Positions 7,136 to 50,518 of a DNA stretch of 64,000 nucleotides are shown one piece after another (position 1 is the first letter of the stretch; the number at the start of each line of letters is the position of its first letter). The notes under the pieces were generated by a model. That model was not told the origin of the DNA. It made no database searches and was given only the letters and a program-made list of their open reading frames with translations. The position numbers and the translations under genes were made by a program. The DNA is from Myxacorys californica WJT36-NPBG1 (GTDB lineage: Bacteria; Cyanobacteriota; Cyanobacteriia; Leptolyngbyales; Leptolyngbyaceae), in the NCBI GenBank assembly GCA_019359315.1, contig JAHHHO010000011.1:1-64000 (forward strand), written 5' to 3'.

Positions 7136-7219
7136 GCTACGACTTTAACCATAAGTTGGACATCCGTTCATCTTATGCTTCAAAAGTCGTCTGTTCATCT
7201 TATGCTTCAAAAAGAACTT
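7136..7219. repeat. Left transposon end with TnsB-type sites
   Basis: The terminal site at 7136-7161 (ACGACTTTAACCATAAGTTG core) is the inverse of the right terminus. Two further sites, 7166-7192 and 7193-7219, share GTTCATCTTATGCTTCAAAA but point the opposite way, so the first two form an imperfect palindrome with arms CGACTTT and AAAAGTCG. The outermost bases are GCT rather than TGT. Confidence 0.7.
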
Positions 7220-7264
7220 AAAGGTTCTTAACTAAGTTTTTTGAAGACACTTTTACATGAGGAG

Positions 7265-8626
7265 TTAAGAATTTTTAAGTCCTAGTTCTTGTCGAGTTGA
7301 CTCTAGTACGGCGACAACAGCAGGTTCACGAAAATATGCTGGCTTGCTTAGGTACCTGGATATGTAGCTGCGTGTAGGATCAATACCTTCACCATAAAGT
7401 TTGAGAGCAATCTGACGTACCTCTTGGCAAGACTCTTGAACTTTTGCAGCACGAACCTGATCTCGGTAATTTAAGTACCGAGCCGAGATAGCAGAACACA
7501 GTTCTGGAAATCGGCGTCGGAGCGATCGGGAATTGTGTCCCAACGTTTGGGCAACAGCCTTCATAGTTGGAGGAGGTTCTTCTATAAGGGCAGATTGCAA
7601 GAATTCTTGTACTTGATCAGTATCAAGCTGTTGTTTAGGTTTTTGAGAAGGGAAGTCTCGCTTTACCAAAATGGCTAACGAATCGCGTGTGTTAGTTAAA
7701 GATTCTGGATTAAACAAGAAATTTAGTAGGTCTATCTCTAAAATTTGACAGATTTTGAGAAGCATTGACAATTGAGGCAAGGCTTTGCCCGACTTCCACT
7801 GCCATACTGCACTTTTGTGTGTTCCTAATTGACGAGCGAACTCAGCAATATTCCCTTCGACGGTGCGCGAGATACAAACAGAGAGCGAACGAGAAATTCG
7901 CTCCCTAGTAGGTGCTTTTAATAAGCTAGGAGCAGTTTCGAGTAATTTCCCTACATTCTCTAAAACCCATCTTTGCCATTTTAGTTCGTCGGGATTTGTT
8001 GTTAAGGTAGCTACTTCCGGAGTAAGAGTTGTACCTAACCATTGGTAGCATCTAGAACAGTATCCAGGTTTAGAATGCCACGCCAATGCGGGTAGTTGGC
8101 GTTGGCATTTTGGGCAACATGAGCGCAGTTGCTGCCGATGTTTTAAGCAGATTGAGACCGTTTCTAGTGCCCATAGGAGTGGCTCATAGATAGGTTTCTG
8201 ATTGTGTTGCCACTCATTGTAGCAACTAGGACACCAAGCACGGATACGTCGTAATAAACCTTTCGGCGGCAAAATGTCAGCCCACGACAAGAGGGTTAGA
8301 TATCTGAGATCGAGACGTAGGGTTTGATACTCCAGTGCTTGAACCAATTCCAATGCCATACGTCCGGTGCTATTTAGACTTTCTGTAGAGCTACTTGTCT
8401 GATGTAAGTAGCTTTTTCCGTGAGATTTGCTAGCCAAAGATTTAAGTTCATTGGCAATTAAATCTCCAGGCGAGACGCAGTGTGCTTCTGCTAGCCGAGC
8501 CATGTATCCAGTCAAGCTCTCAACCCAAGGAGTTCCGACTCCTATCGGTTGCAAACTGTAAAGACGACTGCGAGGTGGACTAGCAGGATATATGAGATCC
8601 CAATGTTCAGCAATGGGTGAAGTCAT
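7265..8626 (-). CDS. tnsD: TnsD-type target-site selector (long TniQ)
   Basis: 453 aa TniQ-family protein. N-terminal TniQ core (LIYPASPPRSRLYSLQP, then GTPWVESLTGYMARLAEAH), zinc-finger cysteines CPSC, CCPKC and CSRC around residues 155-220, then a Cro/C1-like helix-turn-helix (LGTHKSAVWQWKSGKALPQL) and a further DNA-binding-like C-terminal half. The longer form in CASTs binds the attachment site, here probably tRNA-Leu, whose gene lies about 160 bp from its stop. Last gene of the tnsAB-tnsC-tniQ-tnsD operon. Which of the two TniQ proteins does homing is inferred from size. Confidence 0.85.
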   Translation of the reverse strand: MTSPIAEHWDLIYPASPPRSRLYSLQPIGVGTPWVESLTGYMARLAEAHCVSPGDLIANELKSLASKSHGKSYLHQTSSSTESLNSTGRMALELVQALEYQTLRLDLRYLTLLSWADILPPKGLLRRIRAWCPSCYNEWQHNQKPIYEPLLWALETVSICLKHRQQLRSCCPKCQRQLPALAWHSKPGYCSRCYQWLGTTLTPEVATLTTNPDELKWQRWVLENVGKLLETAPSLLKAPTRERISRSLSVCISRTVEGNIAEFARQLGTHKSAVWQWKSGKALPQLSMLLKICQILEIDLLNFLFNPESLTNTRDSLAILVKRDFPSQKPKQQLDTDQVQEFLQSALIEEPPPTMKAVAQTLGHNSRSLRRRFPELCSAISARYLNYRDQVRAAKVQESCQEVRQIALKLYGEGIDPTRSYISRYLSKPAYFREPAVVAVLESTRQELGLKNS

Positions 8627-8650
8627 TGTGAGATTTATAAGTGAGATTTC

Positions 8651-9562
8651 TTAATGAGCCCAATGAGCGAATGTTTCAAGCAGGTTCCATTGAGGGTGTT
8701 GAATTGATTGAGGCGAGATTATTGGGTAGGGTTTCTCTTTGTCACTCAGCACCCCAGCGATCGCTCTCCTTGTTTCTAGCGATGGAATGGTAGGTGTAAC
8801 GCTTAGTACCTCTGCTATTTGCTTTGCAACCCAAAGGTGCCAATCCAACTCTGCCTCAATCAAATGTTCCGCTTCTGAAGTTTGACCTGGACGCACATCA
8901 AGCCAACCTAAACAACCAGAACATTGCCCTACCTGCATTCTTCCTGTAATAGGTCGTTGAGTCTTCTTACAGTTTGGGCAACAGAATTGCAACGGTTGAC
9001 CATGATGAAGACAAACAGTAACAGCAGCAATTGACCAAAGTAGAGGTTCATAAATAGGTTGCTTAGCATTACGCCAAGCTTGAAAACATTCTGGACACCA
9101 AGCTCGGACTTCTCGTGCCAATTCGACTTTGCTTTGCTTTGCTTGAAAAGGTTTATTCATCCAGTCTGGAATCGTAAGGGGTTGCAGGTTCTCTCTTAGA
9201 GTTAAAACCTTGAGTCCCTCAAGATATTGCCAAGCTAAAAGCCCATATTCATTAGGATTTCTCTTATAAACTGGCTTTGCAAAAGAAGAAACTGAAACTA
9301 GACCCCCCTCTTCTCTGACTTCATGAACTGCTCCTAAACCTATGCTGTAGTTTTGTCTGAAGCTAGGCAATATTTCTTGCTTAATTAATATAGCTGGGGA
9401 GACACAATGCGCTTTAGCTAATCGACAAATATAGCTAACTAACCCTTCAATATATGGAGTACCCTCCGCAATTGGTTCTAAGTAGTAGAGCTTACTGCGT
9501 TCTGGAGTAGCTGGTAGAACTAAATCCCATGAATCGTAGGACTTCAATTCATGGATTAGCAT
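8651..9562 (-). CDS. tniQ: Short TniQ, probable Cascade-linked adaptor
   Basis: 303 aa. It shares the TniQ N-terminus with its neighbour (LVLPATPERSKLYYLEP, LVSYICRLAKAHCVSP) and zinc-finger pairs CPEC, CCPNC and CSGC, but lacks the long C-terminal DNA-binding part. In type I CASTs this short form couples Cascade to TnsC. ATG 9562 was chosen over a TTG at 9577 and overlaps the end of tnsC by 14 bases, implying coupled translation. The two TniQ proteins look like a duplication. Confidence 0.85.
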   Translation of the reverse strand: MLIHELKSYDSWDLVLPATPERSKLYYLEPIAEGTPYIEGLVSYICRLAKAHCVSPAILIKQEILPSFRQNYSIGLGAVHEVREEGGLVSVSSFAKPVYKRNPNEYGLLAWQYLEGLKVLTLRENLQPLTIPDWMNKPFQAKQSKVELAREVRAWCPECFQAWRNAKQPIYEPLLWSIAAVTVCLHHGQPLQFCCPNCKKTQRPITGRMQVGQCSGCLGWLDVRPGQTSEAEHLIEAELDWHLWVAKQIAEVLSVTPTIPSLETRRAIAGVLSDKEKPYPIISPQSIQHPQWNLLETFAHWAH

Positions 9563-10670
9563 ATTGGTTTTTCCCAACAGGGCGGCGTTGGGGGAGAGGT
9601 TTGCCTATGTCTTGGGTTTTCTTTGTTCTGGATTTTTTTTGTTCGGTGGGACTTTCCGCTTTAGACGAAGCAAGTAAATCTAATCCTAGGCTGGCACGCA
9701 GTTCGTTCCGAATTTCTGCTCTAGGCGTCAACTTCTGCTCCTCTTCCTTTGCTTCGGATAGCATAATCATGCATTGCTCCATTGACCAAGCATGATGTTC
9801 CAAATCTTCAGCTGTTAAAGTAGCTGCATTTGGATCTTTTTCCAGAACAGCATTTAAGGTGCGTGATAGCCAGTCCTTCAGAATGCCCACACAGCCAATA
9901 CTACGTTCATAACAAAACTCCCATAAACCCAGTAAATCGGGAGTTTCTGGCAGGGGAAGGTAAAACTGGAGGGTTTGCACAATGCCCTGAAACGTTTCCC
10001 GATCCTGAGTAGATTCTGCATAGTAGCGAGGGAGATGAATATCAGTACTACGTCTGCACAATTGAGCACTCAAGTTCCGTAGCATTAAAAGCTCATATGT
10101 GCCACAAAGAACAAACCGGGTTTGAGCAATATTTGCGAGGGATTTGATGCAGTCAGTTTGATCACGTAGCTTGCGTCCGCTCACCACCTTGCCCAAATTT
10201 TGCGCCTCATCGACAAAAAATGCATCAGGCTTTCGATTGCTTAGGGCAGACTCTAATGCCAAACGAAGTTTAAGCTTTGAATTGGTACGATTAATCTTCT
10301 TGTCAATCATCGGCTCATTAAGAGCCATAAGTCCGCGTACATAAAAATCTTTCCAATCAAAATTGCTAAATTCTGGAGCGATCGCTTCGATTCCGGCAAC
10401 TGGAATATACCCCTTATCAATTTCCATCCGAGGTAACGCTGCTTCAATTAGTTCTTTTCTAACCTTCCTTAATAAGGTGGATTTGCCAACCCCTGTTGGT
10501 CCAAAGACAAAGATTAGAGAGGCTCCAGCAGGTTGATGAATTGAGAGCATCAACTGTTGAGCGGCATCTTTAAGCTTAGGATGAGGCATTGTATAGCTCT
10601 GAAAATAGGCAACTCTATCAGCAATGGGTTGATTTAATAACTCTCGCGGAAAGCCTTTTTGGAACTGCAT
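9549..10670 (-). CDS. tnsC: Transposition regulator ATPase TnsC
   Basis: 373 aa AAA+ ATPase linking target selectors to the transposase. Walker A GPTGVGKST at about residues 57-65, Walker B FFVDEAQ at 151-157, and a sensor-1-like stretch RFVLCGTYELL. The ATG lies two bases after the tnsAB stop. The length suits TnsC of Tn7-like elements rather than the shorter form of type V-K CASTs. The last 30 residues are lysine-rich and may contact the partners. Confidence 0.93.
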   Translation of the reverse strand: MQFQKGFPRELLNQPIADRVAYFQSYTMPHPKLKDAAQQLMLSIHQPAGASLIFVFGPTGVGKSTLLRKVRKELIEAALPRMEIDKGYIPVAGIEAIAPEFSNFDWKDFYVRGLMALNEPMIDKKINRTNSKLKLRLALESALSNRKPDAFFVDEAQNLGKVVSGRKLRDQTDCIKSLANIAQTRFVLCGTYELLMLRNLSAQLCRRSTDIHLPRYYAESTQDRETFQGIVQTLQFYLPLPETPDLLGLWEFCYERSIGCVGILKDWLSRTLNAVLEKDPNAATLTAEDLEHHAWSMEQCMIMLSEAKEEEQKLTPRAEIRNELRASLGLDLLASSKAESPTEQKKSRTKKTQDIGKPLPQRRPVGKNQYANP

Positions 10671-10672
10671 AA

Positions 10673-13429
10673 TTACCACTCTCCGTAGAATTCCAAATTG
10701 CTAGAACTACTATCAGAATTAGGCTCATTTGTCTCTAGTCGTTCATCAAGCAGCGGTTCCCTATCTGATAGACCATCTGCAGTAACAGGACTCGAAGGAA
10801 CTACTGAATCAACAGAGCAATCAGTTTCAACAGCTGTAATTGCCTGCACTACTTGCTTGTTCTCAGAAGCTTTTAGGCGTTGTTCCAAAAACTTACCTTC
10901 CTTGGCTTCAACAGAGTTTAAAAACTGCACCAGTTCCTTGTCGGAGGTGATCACATTCCGTCCTTGATCTCGCTTACGTTTTACTAATTCTGCACTGACC
11001 AAACGGATTTCTTTTTCGGAACGTCCCTGAAGATACTGGTAGCAATCAGAAACACACTCCACCCACTGCCCCCGCACCAATGCGTAGGCAATACTGGCAT
11101 CAAAAGGTTCATACCGCACTTCAACCTTTGACTGCTCAATTTCTGGGTCACGGAAAGTATTCGACCAATAGTAAATGTTATTAATTTTGATGCCTCGCCC
11201 CGGTTGTACCTTCCGGTTTCCTCGTTCTGGAGCTGGCAAAGTCAGAATTCGGAAGGTTTTGTCATATTCCACTCGGCGGCAAGTTCGGCTACCGCCAATG
11301 GCTAAACCATCATTGAAGGCTTCACGGGGGCTTTGTCCTAGTGTTGGATGCTGTCGCTTATCGTAGACTTCATATGCCCAGTGGCAGAAAGCTTCATACA
11401 ACTCACCCAGTGTCCAAACTGCCTGGCTCTCAGGTTTGACAGATTTTGTAACTTTGCGGTGCAAACGTTTAATTTGAGTATTACCACGTAACTCATGAAC
11501 AAATTGAGTGTTAGCAGTACCAAACAAACGCTCTACGACAAAGCCATATCTAGCATCTGCTGGAGGACGGTGTTTTTTCGTGCAAGCAAAATATGCTAGT
11601 AGTTGTTCAAAATAGTTGCTGTGGAATTCTGGGCCATTATCTACCACGATTGACTGAGGAAATCGTTTGAAACGTTGAACACAGATACGCAATACGGACA
11701 TGCAGGAACGGTAGCTGGGTTCCTCGTAACTCAAATAGACTGCTAAGAGACGACGGCTATAAGCATCAACCATGAATGTCGCCCAAGGTCTTCCTAAATT
11801 AGGAAGACCTGAATTACCGGAGTTGAAATTGCATTGAGTAAGGGAAGTCAACGAAATAGCCAGTTCAACGTCAATTTCGGTATGGTCAATGTGAATAATT
11901 TCAAAGGGGCGATCGCCATGTCGAGGAGTGGTTAATTCCAACTGCAAATAAGTAGGACGTTCCTGGATAGCTGCCCGTCGCCCTTCCCGTTTTGCCGTTT
12001 GTTCCATGCCGGAGCGGCGCTTGATCTCCTTATAGAAGGTTGTAGAACTAGGAGGAGTAAGTTTAGGTTGATGGGCTTCACAAGCAGCAACTAAAGACTC
12101 GTAGACTCGCCACCTTCTACGATGCTTCAGGGTTTCGTAGTTTTCCTTGATAAATTTAATCATGAATTCTCGAACAGGCTCACCAAGTTTGCTCGTTCGG
12201 TTCCCTTTTGCATAATTAATTGGTAGGAGTCCGACATATCCACTGCCATAGGCTGCCTCTGCTTGACGGTACTGAATTCGCCAACGACGAATGGTGCTAG
12301 AAGGTGTAGGTGGAGCATCTGGGTTGAGATAAGGCTGAATTTGCTCATACCTTCGATTTGCTTCGGCAATGTCCCCAGGCTTAGCACGCCGCAGAATTTC
12401 TTGAATTTTGTCCTGACGAGTTGTGTCTTCAGTTTCGGTTAGGGCAGTAATTTTGCCTTGCTGAATGAGACTTTCAACGGTTCCATTTGGTAGCTCTACG
12501 AACTGGTTATCTGCTCTAAGTAGTCCGGTTGTAGTACTTCCAGTATTAACGACTTCCCAGCACTCGCCATCCCAAACAAGAGAAGCCCCAACTGTTATAG
12601 AAATGATTTGTGAGTGATTTGGAAGGGATAGAGCAACTTCTGTAGCACGCTGATAAGCAAAGGCAGTTGCTTGATCAGAAAAGACTTGGACGCGATCGGG
12701 TTCTGCTAATCGAGCAGCATGGAGATCGACATACAGTGAGTCAGTTGCAATTAAGGTATAGATATCGTCTGGGTTAGCTTGCCGGAGTAATTCTGCTAGC
12801 GTAATGCCCTCTTCATCGGAAACCTGCTTAAGCAGGTTTTGCACAGCTTCTTCACTAAGCTCTGAACTATCTAGGTGAAAATAATCTTCCAGCCAAGCGA
12901 AGTTTTGTTGAAAAATCCAGTTTATTTCGGAATCTGACCGTACTTTAAAAAACAAGCCATATCGTGCTGCGTAGGTTTCAGCGGGAGGACAATGCCATTG
13001 GCTCTGCTCATCTTGTTGATAACGGTTGGGGCTATCCTCTATTAACTTGATAAGCTCTTGCTCAGTCTTGCATTCCTCCCAACCCGCAGAATCTTTTCGG
13101 ATGATGAAAAAATCTGGTGTGTATGGATGCCGGTTACGCCGCCCATTCTTGGATAGGTAGTCAAGCTCAATAGGTATAGGTTGGTCGTAATACTCCAAAA
13201 CGTTGGAATCATGCTCTAGCTCATATATTCGCGCTAACTCGTTGCGGTGTGATTCAAATTGAATGGTAAAGCCCATTTTGTGGCTAGGGTAATTGCCAAC
13301 AACATTTCCCCGACGGCTCTGCACTCGACGTGAAGGAGCAGAGTTGCGAACCCCTTCAATGACGGCACGGGTTGTTTGACTAACACCAAGACTCTGACAC
13401 CAGTTATCAAAACTCTTTGCGTCAAGCAT
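10673..13429 (-). CDS. tnsAB: Fused TnsA-TnsB transposase
   Basis: 918 aa. The first 180 residues are a TnsA endonuclease: Glu64 in HRNEL, Asp106 in YTPDFF and Glu119-x-Lys121 in EECKTE form its active site. The rest is TnsB: helix-turn-helix region near 375-470, then an RNase-H-fold core with Asp515 (IHIDHT), Asp597 (VVDNGPEF) and Glu633 (VVERLF), the last two 35 residues apart as in classic DDE transposases, and an Mu-type C-terminus. With both activities the element should move by cut-and-paste. First gene of the operon; its promoter lies in the 13430-13920 gap. Confidence 0.94.
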   Translation of the reverse strand: MLDAKSFDNWCQSLGVSQTTRAVIEGVRNSAPSRRVQSRRGNVVGNYPSHKMGFTIQFESHRNELARIYELEHDSNVLEYYDQPIPIELDYLSKNGRRNRHPYTPDFFIIRKDSAGWEECKTEQELIKLIEDSPNRYQQDEQSQWHCPPAETYAARYGLFFKVRSDSEINWIFQQNFAWLEDYFHLDSSELSEEAVQNLLKQVSDEEGITLAELLRQANPDDIYTLIATDSLYVDLHAARLAEPDRVQVFSDQATAFAYQRATEVALSLPNHSQIISITVGASLVWDGECWEVVNTGSTTTGLLRADNQFVELPNGTVESLIQQGKITALTETEDTTRQDKIQEILRRAKPGDIAEANRRYEQIQPYLNPDAPPTPSSTIRRWRIQYRQAEAAYGSGYVGLLPINYAKGNRTSKLGEPVREFMIKFIKENYETLKHRRRWRVYESLVAACEAHQPKLTPPSSTTFYKEIKRRSGMEQTAKREGRRAAIQERPTYLQLELTTPRHGDRPFEIIHIDHTEIDVELAISLTSLTQCNFNSGNSGLPNLGRPWATFMVDAYSRRLLAVYLSYEEPSYRSCMSVLRICVQRFKRFPQSIVVDNGPEFHSNYFEQLLAYFACTKKHRPPADARYGFVVERLFGTANTQFVHELRGNTQIKRLHRKVTKSVKPESQAVWTLGELYEAFCHWAYEVYDKRQHPTLGQSPREAFNDGLAIGGSRTCRRVEYDKTFRILTLPAPERGNRKVQPGRGIKINNIYYWSNTFRDPEIEQSKVEVRYEPFDASIAYALVRGQWVECVSDCYQYLQGRSEKEIRLVSAELVKRKRDQGRNVITSDKELVQFLNSVEAKEGKFLEQRLKASENKQVVQAITAVETDCSVDSVVPSSPVTADGLSDREPLLDERLETNEPNSDSSSSNLEFYGEW

Positions 13430-14156: not shown

Positions 14157-14312
14157 ATTGCAACACTGATCGCGCAATTAACAAAACTAGAACATTTGCA
14201 CGAGCAAGAGAATTTACAGAATAATTTTGTACTAAGCTCAAAAAGTTCCGCAAATGCCGCTCCTGAAATGATTCCGCTTCTCTTGTGGATCGGAGTAGCA
14301 CAGGAGGATTTT

Positions 14313-15308
14313 ATGAAATCGCTGTATGTTTCGCAGCAAGGTTGCTATGTGTCACTGCGACAGGATTGTGTAGTAGTAAAGCAGGGCAAGACTGTTCTGC
14401 AAGAGGCGCAGTTACCCATGCTGGAACAGATTCTTGTTTTTGGTCAGTCGCAGTTAACGACCCAGTTGATCCGGGCGTGCTTGTTTCGCAGTATTCCGAT
14501 CGTCTACCTGTCACGCATGGGACGCTGCTATGGACGGGTGCTACCCGTGACGAGCGGCTATCGATCGCTGGCACGACAGCAATATGCCTTATCGGAAGAG
14601 ATTCGATTGGCGATCGCGCGACAAATTGTAGTGGCAAAACTGAAGAATAGTCGAGTAATTTTGCAACGGCAGCAGCGGCGGCAGGGAAATGCGGAATTAT
14701 TGGGAGCAATCACACAGTTGGCACAATTGGCGCAACAGATAGCACAAGCAACGTCGATCGAGCAGTTAATGGGGTATGAGGGGGCGGGGGCAGCAAGTTA
14801 TTTTGGGGTGTTTGGCATATGCATTAATCATCCAGATTTCGTCTGGACAGGGCGATCAAAACGTCCACCAGGAGATCCGGTGAATGCTATGTTGAGTTTT
14901 GGCTATCAGGTGGTGTGGAATCATTTACTGAGTTTGATTGAGTTGCAGGGGTTAGACCCCTATGAGGCGTGCTTGCATCAGGGAAGTGAGCGTCATCCAG
15001 CGTTGGCTTCAGATTTGATTGAGGTGTTTCGAGCACCGATCGTGGATTCGCTCGTGCTGTATTTAGTGAATCGACGGATGGTGGACGCAACGGATGATTT
15101 TGACTTTCCAGCGAACGGAGGGTGCTATTTGAATGAGCTGGGGCGCAAGAAACTTTTGATGGCGTTGATTGGGCGGATGGAAGAGCAGGTGCAGACCGCG
15201 ACCGGAGGAATGGCTCCGCGATGGGATGTGTTAAATCGGCAGGTAAAAATGTTCCGGCAGTTTATTACTCAGGTGTCGCTGAGATATGAGCCGTATCGGA
15301 TTCGATAG
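14313..15308 (+). CDS. cas1: CRISPR integrase Cas1, copy 1
   Basis: 331 aa. Catalytic Glu in YEGAGAASYF, His in CLHQGSERHPAL and the acidic DLIEVFRAPIVDSLV motif are all intact, so spacer integration should work. ATG 14313 follows AGGAGG at good spacing; the frame runs open upstream to 14196 without protein-like sequence. Followed eight bases later by cas2 and then array 1. It is about three-quarters identical by eye to copy 2 at 30667. Confidence 0.93.
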   Translation: MKSLYVSQQGCYVSLRQDCVVVKQGKTVLQEAQLPMLEQILVFGQSQLTTQLIRACLFRSIPIVYLSRMGRCYGRVLPVTSGYRSLARQQYALSEEIRLAIARQIVVAKLKNSRVILQRQQRRQGNAELLGAITQLAQLAQQIAQATSIEQLMGYEGAGAASYFGVFGICINHPDFVWTGRSKRPPGDPVNAMLSFGYQVVWNHLLSLIELQGLDPYEACLHQGSERHPALASDLIEVFRAPIVDSLVLYLVNRRMVDATDDFDFPANGGCYLNELGRKKLLMALIGRMEEQVQTATGGMAPRWDVLNRQVKMFRQFITQVSLRYEPYRIR

Positions 15309-15316
15309 GAGGCAGG

Positions 15317-15595
15317 ATGTTGCTATATGTGGTGGCGTATGATATTCCTTGCCAGAAGCGTCGGACAAAGGCAGCAAATGTGCTGTCTGCTTATGGGCAA
15401 CGGGTGCAATACAGTGTGTTTGAGTGCGTGTTGTCTCTACAACAGTTTCGTGAGTTGCGAGTGCGGTTGCAGCAGGTGGTGAAGTTGCCAGAGGATAGTG
15501 TGCGGATGTATCCGCTGTCGGGACACACGCTGGGGCAGGTTGAGATTTGGGGCGGGGTGCCGTTGACAAAGCGGCAGGGATCGATCGTGGTTTAG
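15317..15595 (+). CDS. cas2: CRISPR adaptation protein Cas2, copy 1
   Basis: 92 aa ferredoxin-fold protein that forms the integration complex with Cas1. Begins LLYVVAYDIPCQKRR with the conserved Asp after the first strand, and ends with the C-terminal strand typical of the family. An AGGAGG site precedes it. Directly followed by the leader of array 1. Confidence 0.92.
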   Translation: MLLYVVAYDIPCQKRRTKAANVLSAYGQRVQYSVFECVLSLQQFRELRVRLQQVVKLPEDSVRMYPLSGHTLGQVEIWGGVPLTKRQGSIVV

Positions 15596-17683: not shown

Positions 17684-18244
17684 CAAAGGGGATCGCGAGA
17701 ACGTCAGCGACAATCAAGGCTAGTCAGGTTAGAACTTTGAGAAAATTAAAGGTTTTACACTGAATTCAAGCTTGAGTACAGGTGATACACAATATCAAAC
17801 CTAGTGGATGTTGAAGGATTTGCTGCGTTTGTAGTTTCACTGTTTGAAGTAAGTAGGTTGCCATAGAAAGATATAAAATAGCTGGAGTATTAATCATCCT
17901 TGCTATCAAGATGCCTGCTCCATTACGAGTTGAGTTAACCATTGAAGAAGACACCACCTTACGAGAACTGAGTTTAGCCACAGAAGTACCCCGTCGAACT
18001 CGCCAACGAGCAATGGCCGTGCGCCTCAACAGTACCGGATGGAGTGTAGGACAAATTGCCCAACACTTACAAATGCACGAGCATAGCGTACGACGTGCGA
18101 TTCGACAGTGGCAGACGGTCGGGCTCTATGGACTGTGGGAGAAGCGGCGACCAGGACGGCAACGCCACTGGCAACAGGAGGATGTTAAAGCCGTTGAGCA
18201 ATGGTTGCAGGAAGAGCGCAGTTACACCAGTTTGCAACTGTGTC

Positions 18245-19512: not shown

Positions 19513-20289
19513 AACTGTGTCACAAGTTAGCCAATGAACGCCATGTTCACTTGAGCCAGCGCACCATGAGCCGCTTGCTGCAAAAAAGGGGTTCCGTTGG
19601 AAACGATTACGCTACAGCCCTCCACAGCCCGAACAGCCAGAGTATGTGAAGTCCAAACGGGCGGACTGGGAGATGCTCAAGCAATGGGAAGCTGAAGGAC
19701 TAGTGCGACTGGTGTATCTGGATGAAAGTGGGTTTGAAAAGAGCAGCCCCTTGACATACAGCTATGTCCGGCAAGGACAACAGCACCGGATTGTTAAACC
19801 GCATGGTCGAGGTCGCCGCATCAGCCTACTTGGGTTTTGGCAACCGGGACAGCAGTTTGACTACGGCATGGTCGTGGGTGGGTTCAACAGCGAACGCTAC
19901 TTGACTTTGATGCACTGGCAAGCCGAACGAGCCAAAGCTCACTGGCAAGCGACCGGACAAATCACAGTGATTGTCCAAGATGGCGCCTCGTTTCACCGCT
20001 CAAAGGTGGTGCAAGCCTATTGGCAACAATGGCAGGAGATGGGCTTATTCATCTTTTTCTTACCGCCGTATTCACCCCAGATGAATCGAATTGAAGATGA
20101 ATGGTTGCATCTCAAGCGGCATGAACTGTGTTCTCAGTTGTTTGAGCATGAGTATGATTTGGCAATCACGCTGATGGAACTCATTGAGCAACGAGGTCAA
20201 AGGCGTGGGTATCCCGTTGAACGTTTTATATTTAATTCTGGCTAGCTACTTATCAGACAGTAACTCTTCCTGCGAAAGTCATAGCTCTT

Positions 20290-21480: not shown

Positions 21481-21517
21481 AAGAATTGTCAAGCAAAATA
21501 AAATATTGATCTTTTAT

Positions 21518-24376: not shown

Positions 24377-24387
24377 GGAGAATAGCT

Positions 24388-25610: not shown

Positions 25611-25616
25611 TTCACC

Positions 25617-27287: not shown

Positions 27288-27297
27288 AGGATCAATC

Positions 27298-31650: not shown

Positions 31651-31675
31651 TCTTTAATGCTCGCTATCTATACTC

Positions 31676-41442: not shown

Positions 41443-42476
41443 GTGTGTTAGAAGAATTGAAACCTCAATTCCATTCGGCTTTTCCCCGTCTGGCATCCGG
41501 GAAGTATGTTCATGTCTTCCTGGTACGTCACAGTCAATCCTTTCCCGTGTTTCAAACAGATGGTGTCCTCAATACGGCTCGAACTCAAGCTGGCTTGGAT
41601 TCCAAAGATGATAAATCTAGGCAATCGATCAACCGATTGGTCATGTTCAAGCGCAAGCAAGTAACACCCGAACGACTGGTTGGACGACAACTGCTACGAT
41701 CGCTAGGACTAACCAGTGCTGTAGAAGGCGAAGTCAACTTTTGCGAATACAACAGTCAGAAATCGTGCAAGAAATGCCCAGACTGTATTATCTACGGATT
41801 CGGGGTTGGAGACAAAGGTGCAGAACGCTCGAAAGTCTACTCAGACTCAGCGTTCTCGCTCAGTCCTTATGAAACTTCCCACCGCAGTTTCACCTTCAAT
41901 GCGCCGTCAGAAAATGGCACGATGAGTGAAAAGGGAGAACTGCGAAGTTCGATCAACGATCTAGACCATGTCCTGCCGGAAGTGATGTTTCCTAGTGTTG
42001 AAACGCTGCGTGATCCCACATTTGAGGGGTTTATTTATGTGCTGGGCAACCTGATTCGCACGCGCCGCTATGGAGGTCAAGAATCCCGAACCGGGACGAT
42101 GATGAATCACATTGTTGGTATTGCCTTTTGCGATGGTGAAGTTTTCAGCAACTTGTATTTCACACAAGCGCTATATGATGCCTTGAATGCAAAGGGGGAT
42201 ATTTGCGTGACGATCGAGGACTTTCGACATGAGGCAGCAAGGGTGGCAAAAAACTGTCTGAAACAGGAGCCAGTTCGCAGCATCACAATTTTTGGGGCTG
42301 AACTCGATGCCTTGCTCGAAGAAGTGACGGGCATCTATCAGGATGAAGTTAAACAGCGCCTTATTATGACCACGCTTTACCAACAGACCCAGATCTACAG
42401 TGAAAGCTACGGAGCAATTTTTCCTGAGAAGAAGAAAGAGGAAAAGAAAAAAGCACAGCAAGGCTCTTCGATCTGA
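41439..42476 (+). CDS. csc2: Type I-D backbone Csc2 (Cas7d)
   Basis: 345 aa. The start SVLEELKPQFHSAFPR and HVFLVRHSQSFPVFQTDG are typical of Csc2, and a cysteine cluster CEYNSQKSCKKCPDC near residue 105 binds zinc in the family. Forms the crRNA-coating filament. Overlaps cas10d by four bases. The C-terminus is lysine-rich. Confidence 0.9.
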   Translation: MSVLEELKPQFHSAFPRLASGKYVHVFLVRHSQSFPVFQTDGVLNTARTQAGLDSKDDKSRQSINRLVMFKRKQVTPERLVGRQLLRSLGLTSAVEGEVNFCEYNSQKSCKKCPDCIIYGFGVGDKGAERSKVYSDSAFSLSPYETSHRSFTFNAPSENGTMSEKGELRSSINDLDHVLPEVMFPSVETLRDPTFEGFIYVLGNLIRTRRYGGQESRTGTMMNHIVGIAFCDGEVFSNLYFTQALYDALNAKGDICVTIEDFRHEAARVAKNCLKQEPVRSITIFGAELDALLEEVTGIYQDEVKQRLIMTTLYQQTQIYSESYGAIFPEKKKEEKKKAQQGSSI

Positions 42477-42490: not shown

Positions 42491-43276
42491 ATGGTTTTCT
42501 ATTTTTGCCATTTAACCTTGCATGACAATGTTTTCTTTGCCTCACGGGAGATGGGAACTCTCTATGAGACAGAAAAATACCTGCACAATTGGGCACTTAG
42601 CTATGCGCTATTTGAAAGCGCCTACATTCCTAGACCTTATCGATTGGAAGGGGCAGTCGCCCAGCGTCCTACGTATCTAGAGATTGATAGTGAGCAAAAC
42701 CTGTTACATCTGAATCAGCAAGGAATTTATGTTTTTCCCGCCCTGCCGCTTCAGTGGACATATCAGGTCAATACATTCAATGTGTCTCAAGCCTTCTACC
42801 ATCAAAAATCAAGACGGTTGGGCTCGGGAGGACATATTCTCAATTACCCAATCAGCTATGGACGGGCAAAGGAACTCGCAGTTGGCAGCAAGTACAGAAC
42901 CTTCATCATTGCTCCTGCCAAAACGAGAATCCCCCGCTGGATAAGACTAGGCAAATGGTCAGCGAAAATTCGAGTCGAGATCATCCCCATTCCTAAAAGT
43001 GGAATTCAAAGGGCAGCAGGCGAGTATGTTTCTGAGCATCCCCTCAATCCTGTAGATCTCTCTAAAACGACCCGATTATTGCTGTATAACCGGATTGTCA
43101 TGCCACCTTCTAGTCTGGTGAGCCAGGCAAAATTGTTGGGTGACTATTGGGAGATCTCAAAACCAGCTCAGTGGGCTAAATTGTCTGAGTGGTCAAGCTT
43201 AGAGAATTTGCCTGAAACGATTTGTTTGCCAAGAGGAGTTGCTTATGGAGCTAACACTCTCGTTACCACACCTTGA
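42491..43276 (+). CDS. csc1: Type I-D Csc1 (Cas5d)
   Basis: 261 aa. HLTLHDNVFFASREMGTLYE and ALSYALFESAYIPRPYRL are Csc1 landmarks. It caps the crRNA 5' end and helps PAM reading in type I-D Cascade. The start is 14 bases after csc2, and the stop lies 32 bases inside cas6. Confidence 0.88.
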   Translation: MVFYFCHLTLHDNVFFASREMGTLYETEKYLHNWALSYALFESAYIPRPYRLEGAVAQRPTYLEIDSEQNLLHLNQQGIYVFPALPLQWTYQVNTFNVSQAFYHQKSRRLGSGGHILNYPISYGRAKELAVGSKYRTFIIAPAKTRIPRWIRLGKWSAKIRVEIIPIPKSGIQRAAGEYVSEHPLNPVDLSKTTRLLLYNRIVMPPSSLVSQAKLLGDYWEISKPAQWAKLSEWSSLENLPETICLPRGVAYGANTLVTTP

Positions 43277-44069
43277 AGCGACAGCATTGCAGACATTGGT
43301 GATTAAACTCGGGGCTGCGGGCAATGGAGATTTTTCCTTATCCTGTAGCCGAGCACTTCATGCTCAAGTTCTGAAATGGTTTCAGTTAGGACAACCACAA
43401 ATTTCTCAAGCAATTCATGATAGTCAGGAGTCTCCCATCAGCCTCTCAGGACTAATGGGCAAGCGCTTTGGAAGAGTTGTGCAGGAGGGAGATGAATTCT
43501 ACTTTCGGGTTGGGTTACTGAATGGAAATCTGCTTGAACCGTTGTTGAAAGGGCTAGAGCAGTGGGAAAGTCAAGTAGTGCTCCTTTCTAAATTTCCTTT
43601 TGTTATCAAAGATATCAATATGTTGCCAGGTAGCCACTTTCTGGTCGGCTCTTCAGACTACACTCTGCTTGCCCAAATGCCTTCAGACGCAAAAGCGCTA
43701 ACACTAAGGTTCCTCTCTCCGACTAGCTTTAAGCTCGCTCAAAATCGGTACATTCAACCAGTTCCATTGCCCGATTCAGTTTTTGGAAGTTTACAGCGTC
43801 GCTGGAATACCTTTGCTCCCAAAGAGTTACGGTTTCCCAAAACTCAATGGGCGGGATTGATTTGTGACTTTGAAATTAAATCCCAGCGGCTAAATCTGGA
43901 CAGGACAGTTGAGCTGGGTTCCGTTGGATGGGTTAGATACCAGTTTCCCGATTTGCAACAAGCTAGAATTGCAAACGTTTTGGCTCACTTTGCCTTCTTC
44001 TCAGGAGTAGGACGCAAAACGGCAATGGGCATGGGATTGACTCTACTTAAAGGAACAACTCCAAGTTGA
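43245..44069 (+). CDS. cas6: CRISPR RNA endonuclease Cas6
   Basis: 274 aa, two ferredoxin-like domains, with the glycine-rich loop FFSGVGRKTAMGMGLT at the end. ATG 43245 follows AAGAGGAG; a TTG at 43239 is in frame but unlikely. The only cas6 in the window. It should cut the mini-array repeat 230 bases downstream. Whether it also cuts the very different repeats of arrays 1 and 2 is unclear. Confidence 0.88.
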   Translation: MELTLSLPHLEATALQTLVIKLGAAGNGDFSLSCSRALHAQVLKWFQLGQPQISQAIHDSQESPISLSGLMGKRFGRVVQEGDEFYFRVGLLNGNLLEPLLKGLEQWESQVVLLSKFPFVIKDINMLPGSHFLVGSSDYTLLAQMPSDAKALTLRFLSPTSFKLAQNRYIQPVPLPDSVFGSLQRRWNTFAPKELRFPKTQWAGLICDFEIKSQRLNLDRTVELGSVGWVRYQFPDLQQARIANVLAHFAFFSGVGRKTAMGMGLTLLKGTTPS

Positions 44070-44302
44070 GTGTGACCAAAACTAGGGCATAGACTTGTGG
44101 CAGACTGCAGCAAGTTCCAAATCTTCAGAAGGTTTGCTAAAACTATTAAAATGCTTAAGACTCAAGGCTCTACTCATTTCTCATGATATAAATAAGTTCA
44201 ATAATTCCTGGCTTTAAGGGCTGAATCTTAACTTTCCTAGAATCAGCTTTGCCAAAGACATGGTTAAGATTTTGTCACGGTTGGCTCTGAGTATGCTAAA
44301 GG

Positions 44303-44409
44303 CTCACGAAACATCCCCCGGTTTGCGGGACTGAAAGTTCAAGCAACAATACCGCTGGTGTTGCGGCTGTATAACTCGTGAAGCATCTCCCGATTTGCGG
44401 GATTGTAAA
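44303..44409 (+). CRISPR. Two-repeat mini-array of the type I-D system
   Basis: Repeats at 44303-44337 and 44375-44409 (35 bp) flank one 37-bp spacer at 44338-44374. Both keep CCCG-(G/A)TTTG-CGGG as a small hairpin and an end like GGGACTGAAAG or GGGATTGTAAA (probable 5' tag). They differ at several positions, unlike the uniform big arrays, and the second is directly followed by an internal transposon terminus. Position after cas6 ties it to the I-D effector. Confidence 0.72.
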
Positions 44410-44411: not shown

Positions 44412-44437
44412 TATACGACTTCACCCATAGGTTGAAC
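44412..44437. repeat. Internal copy of the transposon terminus
   Basis: TATACGACTTCACCCATAGG followed by TTGAAC matches the inverted right terminus at 22 of 26 positions, oriented like a left end. It starts two bases after the second mini-array repeat. The palindromic arms ACGACTT and AAGTCGT recur, as in the left end. Confidence 0.65.
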
Positions 44438-44463
44438 TTTAAGTCGTGATCAGAACACAACAC

Positions 44464-44708
44464 GCGAGAAGAACCAGAATGGCAAGTATTACTGCGATCG
44501 CTTAGTGGAGTGGATTCTAGGACAGAGATTGCCGTTTGATTCACTGTACTACTATGGGAGCGATCGACCGATTCACATCAGCTACGGGTCACTGCACAGG
44601 CGGAGCATTTGGACGTTTACCAGCAACAGAGTACCCACAAAGAAAGGCATTGAAAATTGGATACTGGAAGCGATTGAACATAAGTTTTTAATATTCAATT
44701 GCCCCTAA
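44464..44708 (+). pseudogene. C-terminal gene remnant
   Basis: An open frame encodes CDRLVEWILGQRLPFDSLY, YYGSDRPIHISYGSLHRR and ENWILEAIEHK, which looks like the tail of a real protein, but the upstream part is missing and replaced by the transposon terminus. Family not recognised. It runs convergent with the STAND gene and overlaps its last 21 bases. Confidence 0.45.
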
Positions 44709-47700
44709 TGCCTTTAGTATGGCTTGCTCGACTTCGGTCAACCCCTTCACACCTGTAATGTTCATACCTTCGTAGGGACGATCTCGAACTATCTTTAGAC
44801 ATTCTCCCGTCTCAACATCCCAAAATCGGATAGCATCATCCCGTCCACCCGTTGCTAAAGTTTGACCGTCTATGCTAAAGGCAACGGATAATGCAGGATT
44901 TAAGTGCCCTCTCAAAATACGTAAGCATTGCCCACTACTAACATCCCACAGGCGTACAGTGTGATCAGTACAACCACTGGCAAGAATTTTGCCAGATGGG
45001 CTAAAAGTAACAGAATCAATCCAATCAGTGTGCCCTTGCAAAATATGCAAACATCGCCCTGTATGAATATCCCATAGACGAATTGTGCCATCAGAACAAC
45101 AGCTAGCAATCAAATTTCCCGATGGATCAATTGCTACACCGCGCACCCATTCATCATGTCTCTCAAAGGTGCAAAGACACTCACCGCTATATTTGTCCCA
45201 AAGCTTGAGTAGATGATCACTACCACCACTGACAAGAAAATTGCCTGTTGGATGGAAGGTAATAGACAGTACCCGGTCATCATGTCCTTGCCACAACTTA
45301 TAACATTCGCTATTGTGAATGTTCCAAAGCCGAATTGATCCATCCTCACCACCGCTGGCTAAAGTTTCTTCTGACGGGCTAAAGGCGACTGAGCGCACTG
45401 GTTGAGTATGTCCTTCCATTGTTCTTGTCAGCTCACCAGTTTGAACTTCCCAAAGCTTAATTGTGTGGTCAGAGCTTCCACTAGCCAAGTGTTTTCCATT
45501 GGAGGTAAACGCAATAGAGTTCACCCATTTGTTGTGGCCCTGAAGTGTCTTTAAGTGCTGTCCAGTCTTAGCATTCCACAATCTTATTGTGTGATCAGAA
45601 CTACAGCTAGCTAGCATTGATTCTAATGGGTGAAATGCGACAGCATTAATATTGTTGGTATATCCCTGCAAAATATTTGTACATTCTGTGGTATTCAAGT
45701 CCCAAATTCTAATAGTTTGATCTGAGCCTCCGCTAGCAAGAATGTCTCTTACTGGATTAAAGGCAAGACCAGAAATCCAGCCTGTATGACCTCGTAAAAC
45801 TTTGATGCATTGATAATTGTTTGCATCCCAAATTCTAATTAGCCTGTCGCTGCACGAGCTAGCAATATATTTACCTGATGAGCTAGAAGCAACTGACCAA
45901 ACTAATTCAGTATGACCTTCTAGCGTTTTCAGACATTGACCATCGTGTACTTGCCAAATCTTAACAGTGCAGTCATCGCTACCACTGATCAAAAGAGAAC
46001 CACAAGGGCTGAATTTTACTGAATTAACCGGACCTCCATGTTCTGTTAATGTATATAAACATTGTCCACTTCTGATGTTCCACAGTCGTATTGTACGGTC
46101 GCGGCAAGCACTAGCAACAAACTCTGCTGAAGGGCTAATTGTTAAAGCACGAACCCAGTCTGTGTGCCCCTCAAGGATATGCAAGCATTCTCCAGTCTCA
46201 ACGCTCCAGACTCTTAATGTTTTGTCAGCACTTGAACTAACGATAACTTGCCTATCAGGACTAAAAGCTACAGAGGTCACTTGACCAGTGTGCCCTTGAA
46301 GAGTTTTCAAGCATTGCCCTGTTTGAATATCCCAAAGCCGAATTGTTTTATCAGCACTGCAACTTACTAGCAAATCATTCGTAGTGCTAAAAGCAACACC
46401 ACGCACCCAATTAGTATGCCCTGCAAAAGTCTTTAGCCTTTTTCCACTTTCAGTATTCCACAAAGTAACTAATCCATCCCCACCACCTGTTGCAAGAACT
46501 TCTCCGTCTGAGCTCCACACGACCGAGTAGTTTTCACTAAGAGCGTTGGTGAAAGTAGATTCGATCAGGGTCGCATCAGTAAAATTAGTATGGCGTAAGC
46601 TGGATTTTGAAAAATTAGCACCAATTACTATTACTTGATTGAGATCATGCCCCTCAAGCGCGTAATTGTTTAATTCCACTGCCAATGTCGCTGAATTTCC
46701 ACCAACATATCGGACTTGCTCAGGGGTTCTACCTTGGGTTCTTCTTAGAATCTGTATGAGGGGATCTGTAGAGACTAGCATTGGAACTAATAAGTCTATT
46801 ACAGCTTTTACTAATGGAGCTTTTCCAAAGCTTGATTGTAGTTCCTCAAGTTTTTCACTGATAAAGCTATTCAAAGGTGCGATCGCTTTACTTAGTCCTT
46901 TTTCATCTAATTCACGGCGAAAGTAAGCAGACCAATTATAATCCTGTGGTTCTGCACCTGTATCTAAACAAGACTGTGCTTGTGCTAATTCTATAAAATC
47001 AGGAGCTAATGCTCCCAACTGCGCTGCAAATTTATAGGCAACAAAAAACTCCAACAACGATCGATGCGCTGGCATATAGTCACCATCCGCATTCCGAATC
47101 AGCATCGTCTGCCCCATCATGTCGTAATGCCAGTGATCCAGGTCTTTTTCCTCTTGAACAACCGACCCAAACAGGCGACGAATGCGATCAGGAAACTCTC
47201 GATAGTTGAGACTCATGCGATCACTACTCAACATCTCCCAAGACAACTCACACAGAAAATAGAGCTTTTCTGCCAATGACGTGAACGTGCGCTCCTCCTT
47301 GATATCCCGCTCCATCTTGCGCCGCACTGCATACAAATACACCCGTGACATATCCACAGGTTTGCCTGCCTCAATATCGGGCAACGCTTCTATAATCAAC
47401 TCCGTCATTACTGGACGACGTGCTAAATCTAGAAGCTGCGGATTGTTCATTACCTGTTCCACAGTGTCAGATTCCGCTTGCAGCGACATCACCTGTCGGA
47501 TTTGCTCATCGTCAAATTTTTCTAGTTCTAGCACCTCAAACTGAGGCATTTCTCCAGTTAAATTCGAGACGGATGCCTGTAACTGAGCGTTCAAGAGTGC
47601 CCGTCCTTCTCTCGCTTCTGGAAAATGTTCTGTTCGACAGGTAAGAATAACTTTCGCTCCTGGCACAACGATCTTCGCGAGTTCCCAGAAGTTATTGATC

Positions 47701-49166
47701 ATTTCTTGACGATCGACTCGCGCTGCCATTTCATCAAATCCGTCAAAAATCAGCAGCAGTTTGCCCATGCGATTGAGTTGTTCAAACGCAGAATAAGTCA
47801 GCGATCTCACCTCATGCTTCCGGAAGAAGAACTCTGAGAACAGCGACTCTACGCTCACCGCCTTAGCATAATCTCGTAATGGAATTACCAACGGTAATCG
47901 AGGGCGCTCGACTCCACGCTGTTGAGCTTCTCGATACCGTTTGAGAGCTTGACTCGCATAGTGAAATGCAAACCAGGTTTTGCCTGTGCCAAACTCTCCT
48001 AACACCGAAATATGTTCTTTTGCTGGGTCATCTAGCCATAAATCAATATAGCCATCAATCCAACCATCACGATCGTCATAGCGACTCACGCCGATGCGCT
48101 GCTTCGTGTCGGGATCAACCTCTTCTTTGATGCAAGCCAGTGGAATGTACTTTTGCTCAATGCCCCGTCGCTGAATTTCTGATTCTAGCCAGTCTAGATA
48201 GCCACCAAAGTCTGCATCTTGATCAAGCAGTTCATCGAATGTGTAACAACCCAGGTCGTGATTCTCTTCTTTCTCAACTTCCTCCCGTGCTGCTCGACTA
48301 ATGCGCCGTGTTGTTACCAACCAGCCTTCATCGGCTCGTTGTGCTTCAACCGATTGTCGCACTGCCCTGATATCTCCTAATCCTGCTTCACCATCAATGC
48401 CGCGCACCAAGATGCGATCGTACCGCCCGCGCCGCACCGGAATATCGATAATCCATTCAAAATAATCGTCTTGCCATTCCTCATGCAACTCAAATCGGTA
48501 TCCCAAGGTTTCAAACCAGCCTTTCATCTGCTGGGCAAGCGCGAAGGCTCGGCACTGGCTTTCCTGAAACTGTCTTGCTTGAATCGATGCAGGAGTTTTC
48601 ATGGTTCCAGTTCCAGGCAACGCCGGATAGTTCTGAGCCGCTAATCGCGCCATCTCCGTCCGCAGGGCTTCGAGTGTCGGCAGCCGATGCAATCGCTCCT
48701 GGATACTGCCAATTTGTCGGTGCAAGGACTCAAGCTTGTGATTTGCTAAGACTTCAGCCGGAGTGCGGGTGCGTTTGGCAACTTCGATAAATACTGCCGC
48801 AAACTGGTAAAACTCCTGTCTCGCGTCAATCCCTAGCTCTCGAATTTGATCGCCTAACGTGTTTCCAGAGAGAAACGTCTCGCCTTCTTTGAGCAACAGA
48901 CTTGGGTTATTCTGATCCAGTGCTTTGCGAAAAATGGCTTGAATTTCAGCGTGTCGGAACATCTCCAAGACTACCCTTGGCTTGCCGAGACCATATTCCA
49001 CCAGCGTGTATTGGTAAACGGCTGTAAAATCAGCGGGCGGATGATCTGGCTCGAGGTTCAGTTGCTTCAACAGCTTAATCACAAGCTCACTGCGCTGGAG
49101 CTTATCTTGTACGACTGGAGTTGCGAACCCGACAATCATGTCAATCAACTTAGCCAACTCAAACAC
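44688..49166 (-). CDS. STAND NTPase: REase-like, NACHT, pentapeptide, WD40
   Basis: 1492 aa. Helical N-terminus (1-190); a restriction-endonuclease-like domain about 205-330 (FEWIIDIPVRRGRYDRILVR; catalytic residues not certain); NACHT ATPase with Walker A GEFGTGKT (390-397) and Walker B LLIFDGFDEM (471-480); a short pentapeptide stretch (NFSKSSLRHTNFTDATL); then 14 WD40 repeats, enough for two seven-bladed propellers. This build matches anti-phage STAND sensors, in which the C-terminal repeats detect and the N-terminal nuclease acts. GTG start with AGGAG. It is probable defence cargo; a signalling role as in other cyanobacterial WD40-NACHT proteins is possible. Confidence 0.85.
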   Translation of the reverse strand: MFELAKLIDMIVGFATPVVQDKLQRSELVIKLLKQLNLEPDHPPADFTAVYQYTLVEYGLGKPRVVLEMFRHAEIQAIFRKALDQNNPSLLLKEGETFLSGNTLGDQIRELGIDARQEFYQFAAVFIEVAKRTRTPAEVLANHKLESLHRQIGSIQERLHRLPTLEALRTEMARLAAQNYPALPGTGTMKTPASIQARQFQESQCRAFALAQQMKGWFETLGYRFELHEEWQDDYFEWIIDIPVRRGRYDRILVRGIDGEAGLGDIRAVRQSVEAQRADEGWLVTTRRISRAAREEVEKEENHDLGCYTFDELLDQDADFGGYLDWLESEIQRRGIEQKYIPLACIKEEVDPDTKQRIGVSRYDDRDGWIDGYIDLWLDDPAKEHISVLGEFGTGKTWFAFHYASQALKRYREAQQRGVERPRLPLVIPLRDYAKAVSVESLFSEFFFRKHEVRSLTYSAFEQLNRMGKLLLIFDGFDEMAARVDRQEMINNFWELAKIVVPGAKVILTCRTEHFPEAREGRALLNAQLQASVSNLTGEMPQFEVLELEKFDDEQIRQVMSLQAESDTVEQVMNNPQLLDLARRPVMTELIIEALPDIEAGKPVDMSRVYLYAVRRKMERDIKEERTFTSLAEKLYFLCELSWEMLSSDRMSLNYREFPDRIRRLFGSVVQEEKDLDHWHYDMMGQTMLIRNADGDYMPAHRSLLEFFVAYKFAAQLGALAPDFIELAQAQSCLDTGAEPQDYNWSAYFRRELDEKGLSKAIAPLNSFISEKLEELQSSFGKAPLVKAVIDLLVPMLVSTDPLIQILRRTQGRTPEQVRYVGGNSATLAVELNNYALEGHDLNQVIVIGANFSKSSLRHTNFTDATLIESTFTNALSENYSVVWSSDGEVLATGGGDGLVTLWNTESGKRLKTFAGHTNWVRGVAFSTTNDLLVSCSADKTIRLWDIQTGQCLKTLQGHTGQVTSVAFSPDRQVIVSSSADKTLRVWSVETGECLHILEGHTDWVRALTISPSAEFVASACRDRTIRLWNIRSGQCLYTLTEHGGPVNSVKFSPCGSLLISGSDDCTVKIWQVHDGQCLKTLEGHTELVWSVASSSSGKYIASSCSDRLIRIWDANNYQCIKVLRGHTGWISGLAFNPVRDILASGGSDQTIRIWDLNTTECTNILQGYTNNINAVAFHPLESMLASCSSDHTIRLWNAKTGQHLKTLQGHNKWVNSIAFTSNGKHLASGSSDHTIKLWEVQTGELTRTMEGHTQPVRSVAFSPSEETLASGGEDGSIRLWNIHNSECYKLWQGHDDRVLSITFHPTGNFLVSGGSDHLLKLWDKYSGECLCTFERHDEWVRGVAIDPSGNLIASCCSDGTIRLWDIHTGRCLHILQGHTDWIDSVTFSPSGKILASGCTDHTVRLWDVSSGQCLRILRGHLNPALSVAFSIDGQTLATGGRDDAIRFWDVETGECLKIVRDRPYEGMNITGVKGLTEVEQAILKALGAIEY

Positions 49167-50114: not shown

Positions 50115-50170
50115 GGATGCAGAACTGGGCGACGTGCCTCTGAGATCGTGGCAAAGGTGAAGATTCCAGT
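50115..50170 (+). pseudogene. Decayed tRNA-Leu-like sequence
   Basis: AGAACTGGGCGACGTGCC resembles the D arm of the tRNA-Leu at 7025 (GGAATTGGTAGACGCGCC), and GCAAAGGTGAAGATTCCAGT its variable and T arm (GCAAGAAGTGAAGGTTCAAG), in the same order, with the anticodon region shortened by about seven bases. No acceptor stem forms, so it is not a working tRNA. Confidence 0.4.
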
Positions 50171-50173
50171 TAA

Positions 50174-50201
50174 CAAAAGGGCAAAGAGAATTGCCCTTTT
50201 G
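50174..50201. terminator. Perfect inverted repeat, terminator-like
   Basis: CAAAAGGGCAA and TTGCCCTTTTG form an 11-bp stem with a six-base loop; a T run follows about ten bases later on the plus strand. It may end transcription across the right end. Confidence 0.55.
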
Positions 50202-50362
50202 AATGCTGCTTTTTTGAACACGAAGAAACTAGAGCTAACTGAAGTTTTACGCTTGGACAACCTAGGGTTGCAGTTACATCTTTACCAGCACCATGATCTT
50301 TATAATTCTTAATGGTGAAGAATAAGAATCGACCAATCATAAAGTTTTGTTTACAAAATTTT

Positions 50363-50518
50363 GTTCAGTTTATGCCTCTATCTTTGTACTGTCGTTCAAC
50401 TTATGATTAAAAACTTGGAAGACCTAAGGTTAAGACAGCATGGTGGGATCAGCTTTTTCTCCCATCTTTGCTCAACTTATGGTTCAAACAATGTTCAACT
50501 TATGGTTAAAGTCGTACA
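50363..50518. repeat. Right transposon end with four TnsB-type sites
   Basis: Direct copies at 50363 (GTTCAGTTTATGCCTCTA), 50394 (GTTCAACTTATGATTAAAAA), 50470 (CTCAACTTATGGTTCAAA) and 50493 (GTTCAACTTATGGTTAAAG), the last running into GTCGTACA at 50511-50518. The ACA end is canonical for Tn7-like elements, and multiple sites in one direction are the usual TnsB binding layout. Confidence 0.8.

Follow-up and report, generated by a model that had tools for sequence, protein, structure and literature searches.

Type I-D CRISPR-associated transposons (CASTs) are a recognised kind of Tn7-like element, and some of them are active according to the accessible part of one report (PMC12669027). CyCAST (Tn7745, from Cyanothece sp. 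PCC 7425) is described in the available sections of its paper as combining TnsAB, TnsC, TniQ and TnsD with a Cas10d-Csc2-Cas5-Cas6 Cascade and as homing to tRNA-Leu (PMC10293859). McCAST (Tn7575), from Myxacorys californica WJT36-NPBG1, has a TnsA-TnsB fusion, a TnsD at a tRNA gene, a I-D Cascade and an inactivated Cas10 nuclease in the excerpt available of a review (PMC11406308), and is also treated in PMC12719977, likewise available in part. Here we analysed a window of 64,000 nt (positions 1-64,000 of contig JAHHHO010000011.1 from M. californica WJT36-NPBG1, forward strand), to which all coordinates below refer, and found a type I-D CAST of 43,379 bp at 7138-50516. With a probability of roughly nine in ten, we consider this element to be a Tn7-like CAST of type I-D that is interference-dead, uses two targeting routes and carries a type III-B CRISPR-Cas system and a STAND gene as cargo. 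A first-pass annotation of the window had already proposed a I-D CAST homed at tRNA-Leu, and this is borne out at the sequence level by the gene content, the ends and target-site duplication, the position and distance from the tRNA, the loss of the Cas10d HD motif, the lack of a Cas3d match and the TnsAB and Cas10d trees, which join the element to another I-D CAST. What is less ordinary here is the III-B cargo, together with a STAND gene that is common to the element and a relative.

The element is bounded by 25-bp inverted termini that are copies of TACGACTTTAACCATAAGTTGRACA. When the right end was used as a query it matched the left end at 24/25 positions, whilst 100 sequences of 64 kb, simulated with an identical first-order composition, gave no match above 18/25. 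The left (tRNA-proximal) end (7138-7212) comprises the terminal repeat and two further 23-nt repeats (7163-7185 and 7190-7212), which are presumed TnsB sites, and the right end (50395-50516) contains three TnsB-like repeats starting at 50395, 50471 and 50494. Directly outside both termini lies a 5-bp duplication, CAAGC (7133-7137 and 50517-50521). The matching inverted termini beside tRNA-Leu(UAG) had been recognised before, with boundaries at 7136-50518; the termini are real, but the boundaries have to be moved by 2 bp, which leaves CAAGC outside the element. The choice of terminal base is supported by a minimal Tn7-like element of approximately 5.2 kb in Iningainema tapete (L006:9598-14812; tnsAB, tnsC and one tniQ), which is flanked by ACACA on both sides. 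The attachment site, a tRNA-Leu(UAG) gene (7025-7106, forward strand; ARAGORN and Rfam), is itself unbroken, and the left terminus is found 31 bp downstream of it; homing insertions of CyCAST were measured approximately 30-33 nt downstream of tRNA-Leu, according to the available sections of that paper (PMC10293859). Joining the two flanks gives a strong hairpin directly 3′ of the tRNA, with the insertion point at its foot. A search for the empty site in close relatives, which the first-pass annotation had recommended, gave a partial answer, from the left side: the order menE-6553-tRNA-Leu is kept in three relatives (G001, G004 and G008), and the 19-20 kb fetched around their tRNA-Leu held neither a match to the tns or cas proteins nor a transposon end at more than 18/25, and gave one weak HNH match.

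Four transposition genes lie on the reverse strand next to the left end. They encode a TnsD-like TniQ of 453 aa with HTH (7265-8626; Pfam TniQ and HTH_3), presumably the selector of tRNA-Leu, a small TniQ of 308 aa (8651-9577), the presumed Cascade partner, the AAA+ ATPase TnsC (9549-10679; Walker A present) and a TnsAB fusion transposase of 918 aa (10673-13429), in which TnsA N, weak TnsA C, rve and Mu-transpos_C domains were detected. The Cascade genes are encoded on the forward strand and comprise cas10d (38593-41442), csc2 (Cas7d, 41439-42476), csc1 (Cas5d, 42491-43276) and cas6 (43239-44069). All the genes named in the first-pass annotation are present at or near the places it gave. These Cascade genes are of type I-D and not of type I-B, as a type I-B2 CAST would have. 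They are followed by an array (44301-44409, forward strand) with a 37-nt repeat, a single spacer of 35 nt and a degenerate second repeat that keeps the CCCG/CGGG stem.

The closest relative found is an element of approximately 64.8 kb, also at tRNA-Leu(UAG), in genome G005 (C1:2540648-2605474), which is probably Kovacikia minuta CCNUW1, a member of the same family but of another genus. The two elements are 70% identical in TnsAB, 72% in TnsC, 73% in Cas10d, 85% in Csc2, 82% in Csc1 and 57% in the TnsD-like TniQ, and the repeat core CCCGGTTTRCGGGACTGAAAG is common to both of their I-D arrays, that of G005 having five repeats. In a TnsAB tree of 24 rows the two group at 100/99, with the Iningainema element branching next (98/98). 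In the Cas10d tree, of 19 rows, the window pairs with the G005 CAST copy at 100/100, in a group that also holds a second copy from G005 (C2) and one from G037, each beside a I-D cas3′. The first-pass annotation had asked for such trees, and had named as grounds for rejection a placement outside I-D CASTs or a lack of linkage between tns and cas10d in relatives; the two are linked in G005 and both proteins join that I-D element at full support, although this is the only linked relative found. The G005 element further resembles that of the window in its lost HD motif, in a STAND gene at the same place and in a pair of small genes, but differs in its size, its five-repeat array, its cargo of NACHT/conflict type and the lack of a match to the III-B genes. 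Ten proteins of this cargo were scanned (L061, L062) and include NACHT, nSTAND, TIR, FHA and VWA domain proteins.

Elements of the neighbouring TnsAB clade sit at tRNA-Val, tRNA-Ala or tRNA-Leu(UAA). Nostocaceae Tn7-like elements (L008, L010, L011, L014, L015 and L020) share a TnsAB fusion, 54-55% identical to that of the window, and attachment at a tRNA, but form a separate TnsAB clade, use tRNA-Val or tRNA-Ala and gave no I-D Cascade match within the stretches fetched. According to the portion of the review at hand, I-B2 CASTs belong to one subfamily with the Nostocaceae elements at tRNA-Val and tRNA-Ala (PMC11406308). At E 1e-150 or better, TnsAB was found in 5/42 genomes of the order. An even draw of the phylum contained TnsAB in 18/386 genomes and a close Cas10d (E 1e-100) in 15/386; four genomes hold both (the window's, G177, G193 and G384), and the listed places are near one another only in the window's. 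G177 is a draft, with TnsAB and Cas10d on different contigs.

A closer inspection of Cas10d revealed that the HD motif has been lost: the window protein reads FQNDNS where the solved Cas10d (7sba) reads LHDYDK. LHDY[N/D]K is kept in 17 of the 19 distinct genomic Cas10d sequences aligned, the exceptions being the window and the G005 CAST copy (FQGYGH). In a second stretch, most rows read RLRD, the window RVRA and the G005 CAST copy RLRN. Only the HD motif is diagnostic, because RLRN also occurs in the C2 Cas10d of G005, which lies beside a cas3d. The Cas11-like part still has its start (M796). The first-pass annotation was also right about the missing cas3, since the window's genome, searched at E 0.001 with a I-D Cas3′ of 707 aa (TIGR03158, from G005 C2), gave no match. 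That genome contains one Cas10d match and four Cas1 matches, of which two lie within the element and the two outside it are partial; thus nothing seen there points to a canonical I-D system capable of renewing the I-D array. In the available sections of its paper CyCAST has a predicted active HD, a Cas3′ and cas1/2/4 for I-D (PMC10293859), whereas the window element has lost HD, its genome yielded no cas3d and both of its cas1-cas2 pairs adjoin III-B type arrays. McCAST is of the same element kind, attached at a tRNA and inactivated in its Cas10 nuclease, in a comparison made with the description in the review excerpt only (PMC11406308). In the NCBI taxonomy, Myxacorys and Kovacikia, the probable genus of G005, both belong to Leptolyngbyaceae. 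It is conceivable, although we lean against it, that the window element is McCAST itself or a near-identical copy, and hence already described.

By analogy with characterised CASTs, we infer a division of labour between the two TniQ proteins. The larger, TnsD-like TniQ would bind tRNA-Leu(UAG) and, through TnsC, recruit TnsAB, leading to insertion approximately 31 bp downstream with the tRNA left intact, and the present insertion would have arisen by this route. The small TniQ would link TnsC to a Cascade of Cas10d, Csc2, Csc1 and possibly Cas6, loaded with CRISPR RNA and able to bind DNA without cutting it. This RNA-guided route would direct the element to other sites, presumably on other mobile DNA. 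In both cases TnsAB is expected to cut and paste the whole 43 kb, leaving the 5-bp duplication. The sequence between and beside the two modules would then be cargo, namely an apparently complete III-B system with its two CARF-HEPN effectors, and a STAND gene for an immune receptor, and a defensive role seems plausible for all of it.

The STAND gene (44688-49166, reverse strand) encodes 1492 aa, with NNH5, NA-iREase1 and WD40 families among the best 25 of 63 families, and had been noted in the first-pass annotation. A full-length homologue is found in the G005 element after cas6, in the same orientation and the same relative place, with the small-gene pair in between. When the two proteins were compared in bins of 150 residues, residues 1-750 were 86-95% identical and residues 751-1500, the WD40 half, 43-48%. 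Matches to the first 600 residues at E 1e-60 occur in 21/386 genomes of the phylum draw, the window's included, and a tree of 19 N-terminal halves, from the window, G005 and 17 further copies, unites the two that lie in CASTs at 100/100. A recent exchange of STAND between the two CASTs was suspected, since the first 600 residues are 90% identical compared with 70% for TnsAB, and was rejected. The identity at four-fold third bases between window and G005 is 45% for STAND, 41% for TnsAB, 47% for Cas10d, 38% for TnsC, 59% for csc2 and 69% for csc1. The silent sites of STAND are thus about as similar as those of other genes, which argues for an old divergence under strong constraint, these sites being near saturation and giving no date. 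STAND has probably stayed with the element since before its split from the relative, while the sensor changed, as judged from two elements of one family.

More tentatively, and with the balance of our judgement against it, STAND may be a permanent accessory in one lineage of I-D CASTs instead of transient cargo, in which a conserved effector/NTPase half is combined with a fast-changing WD40 sensor that would protect the element or its host; in its boldest form, the receptor would act with the adjoining disarmed Cascade. If true, a single mobile unit would combine a receptor with RNA-guided integration and with a III-B system that has adaptation genes of its own. There is a parallel in Streptomyces, where, in the part available of a review, a derived I-E Cascade and a STAND NTPase are predicted to cooperate in defence (PMC8730458). 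There too the Cascade lacks Cas3 and adjoins a STAND NTPase gene, but in the same part it has no array and is described apart from the Tn7-like cases, whereas the Cascade of the window is accompanied by an array and by tns genes within a transposon. This review, in the part available, was the one source found on Tn7-like elements together with STAND NTPases (PMC8730458), and none was found that joins Tn7-like elements, CRISPR and WD40 in cyanobacteria, Tn7-like CRISPR-associated transposons and NACHT cargo, or a I-D CAST and type III cargo, in literature of which subscription papers were mostly outside reach. Through the shared STAND, the idea that an immune receptor travels with a CAST becomes open to test.

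Several results weigh against the element being a I-D CAST with two targeting routes and this cargo. The right flank is not syntenic in G001, G004 and G008, so the empty site is seen from the left side only, and in 6 of the 7 relatives' loci with a homologue of the CHRD gene from the right flank, the approximately 1.5 kb around that homologue was scanned and contained no tRNA (L060 left out). Because the right flank was not found in the relatives that are syntenic on the left, the boundaries rest on the ends and the duplication. The I-D spacer had no other match in its own genome with up to 3 mismatches, none in phages and only a 27-base match of chance level in plasmids, and its first 24 bases had no exact match in viral contigs. 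No matching target duplication was seen at the G005 element; the I-D array of G005 was also searched against plasmids, with no match. Moreover, cas10d is found in only two of the 39 TnsAB stretches (window and G005), many of the stretches being short, and its linkage rests on these two elements. A generic Tn7-like element that carries cas10d-csc2-csc1-cas6 as mere cargo, with no role in targeting, would fit the other 37 stretches, which show no I-D genes, and the 5.2-kb Iningainema element, which gave no match to the window's cas genes. We regard this as highly improbable, given that HD is lost in both tns-linked Cas10d and in 0/17 others, that cas3d was not found and that the same gene set is linked in another genus. 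The small second TniQ beside TnsD also counts against it, as the same arrangement is present in the tested I-D CASTs, in the available sections of PMC10293859.

The reading that we favour, a I-D CAST with two targeting routes, also leaves a third end-like sequence inside the element unaccounted for. This sequence (44414-44438, forward strand) matches the terminus at 21/25 (simulated maximum 18/25), has the orientation of a left end and directly follows the degenerate repeat of the I-D array. It could be the left end of an older element at the same tRNA, in which case the CAST would have lost its own right end and adopted that of its neighbour, capturing STAND; two insertions at one site would both give CAAGC, with which the outer duplication is compatible. 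We consider such a fusion of two elements rather unlikely. STAND has the same relative place in G005, whose interior holds no end-like site above 17/25, so the gene was probably there before, and the copy at 44414 has neither the additional TnsB-like repeats of the true ends nor a flanking duplication.

Between tnsAB and cas10d, the I-D CAST carries a III-B (Cmr-type) CRISPR-Cas locus with its own adaptation genes and 25 + 41 = 66 spacers, the second CRISPR system that the first-pass annotation had noted. It covers 21 kb (14196-35277, cas1a through array 2), about half of the element. The annotation had attributed an unusually large size to this system and to STAND. The contribution of the III-B locus is evident, but unusual size is unsupported given the approximately 64.8 kb of the G005 element (a single comparison), and STAND, being common to both, is no private extra. 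On the forward strand, cas1a and cas2a (14196-15595) are followed by array 1 (15779-17683; 26 repeats), and the effector genes cas10/cmr2 (GGDD at residue 364), cmr3, cmr4, cmr5 and cmr6 (21663-27287) by two CARF-HEPN (Csx1/Csm6-type) proteins with RxxxxH motifs (27199-30234), csx18, cas1b and cas2b (30320-31954) and array 2 (32154-35277; 42 repeats). The two cas1-cas2 pairs are 62% alike and the repeats of the two arrays are related. No Cmr1 was recognised by Pfam, NCBIfam or PADLOC among the proteins given to each, and the Cmr6-family protein is long (556 aa). Other cyanobacterial III-B (Cmr) loci likewise contain Cas10/Cmr2, Cmr3-6 and Csx1-type proteins, but the window copy lies inside a CAST. 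Relatives of its Cas10/Cmr2 were found on cyanobacterial plasmids (9 records), the best being 52% (Leptolyngbya boryana plasmids).

Searches against phages gave no match for array 2 and three Escherichia phage records at E 0.05 for array 1, which we judged to be chance. The two arrays matched 10 and 11 plasmid records; as there were no annotated genes under the listed matches, we read these, which were not checked individually, as repeats of other cyanobacterial arrays. Three of the 66 spacers were searched against viral contigs with patterns of 28-30 bases, with no match. CRISPR as Tn7-like cargo is already known and uncommon. In the accessible part of a survey of 6,549 Tn7-like transposons, complete adaptive systems were infrequent and two elements carried type III, both in Proteobacteria (PMC8649781), and in the available sections of the CyCAST paper some cas genes near tnsC are considered cargo (PMC10293859). 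The window element suggests that an adaptive immune system that includes adaptation genes of its own can be carried by a transposon with a disarmed targeting Cascade.

Insertion-sequence (IS) genes for an HTH protein, a DDE_Tnp_1 transposase and a DDE_3 protein (17911-20245, forward strand) lie between array 1 and the cmr genes; they appear to be an IS630-like element split by another IS and offer a possible route of cargo entry. They are followed by a WYL / CARF-WYL-type regulator (20290-21492, reverse strand). Beyond array 2, two overlapping small genes (35969-36624, forward strand) encode a protein of 116 aa with no known family and an HTH-like protein of 102 aa, and three further Tn7-like elements (G005, L013 and L113) have homologues of the pair within or close to them. 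The pair could be a regulator. A toxin-antitoxin reading was considered and rejected: Pfam, NCBIfam and PHROGs returned nothing for the first gene and only weak matches, HTH-type and similar, for the second, and PADLOC gave none; a PDB search of the first gene product also gave no match. An HNH endonuclease-like protein is encoded at 37472-37786 (forward strand). Away from the window, a same-genus genome (G001:C8, L051:5682-10787) contains a small Tn7-like element with a broken reading frame for TnsAB. In the C2 I-D locus of G005, which has a cas3′ (L063:6761-13870), cas10d is shortened to approximately 651 aa and is followed by an opposed open reading frame of 992 aa.

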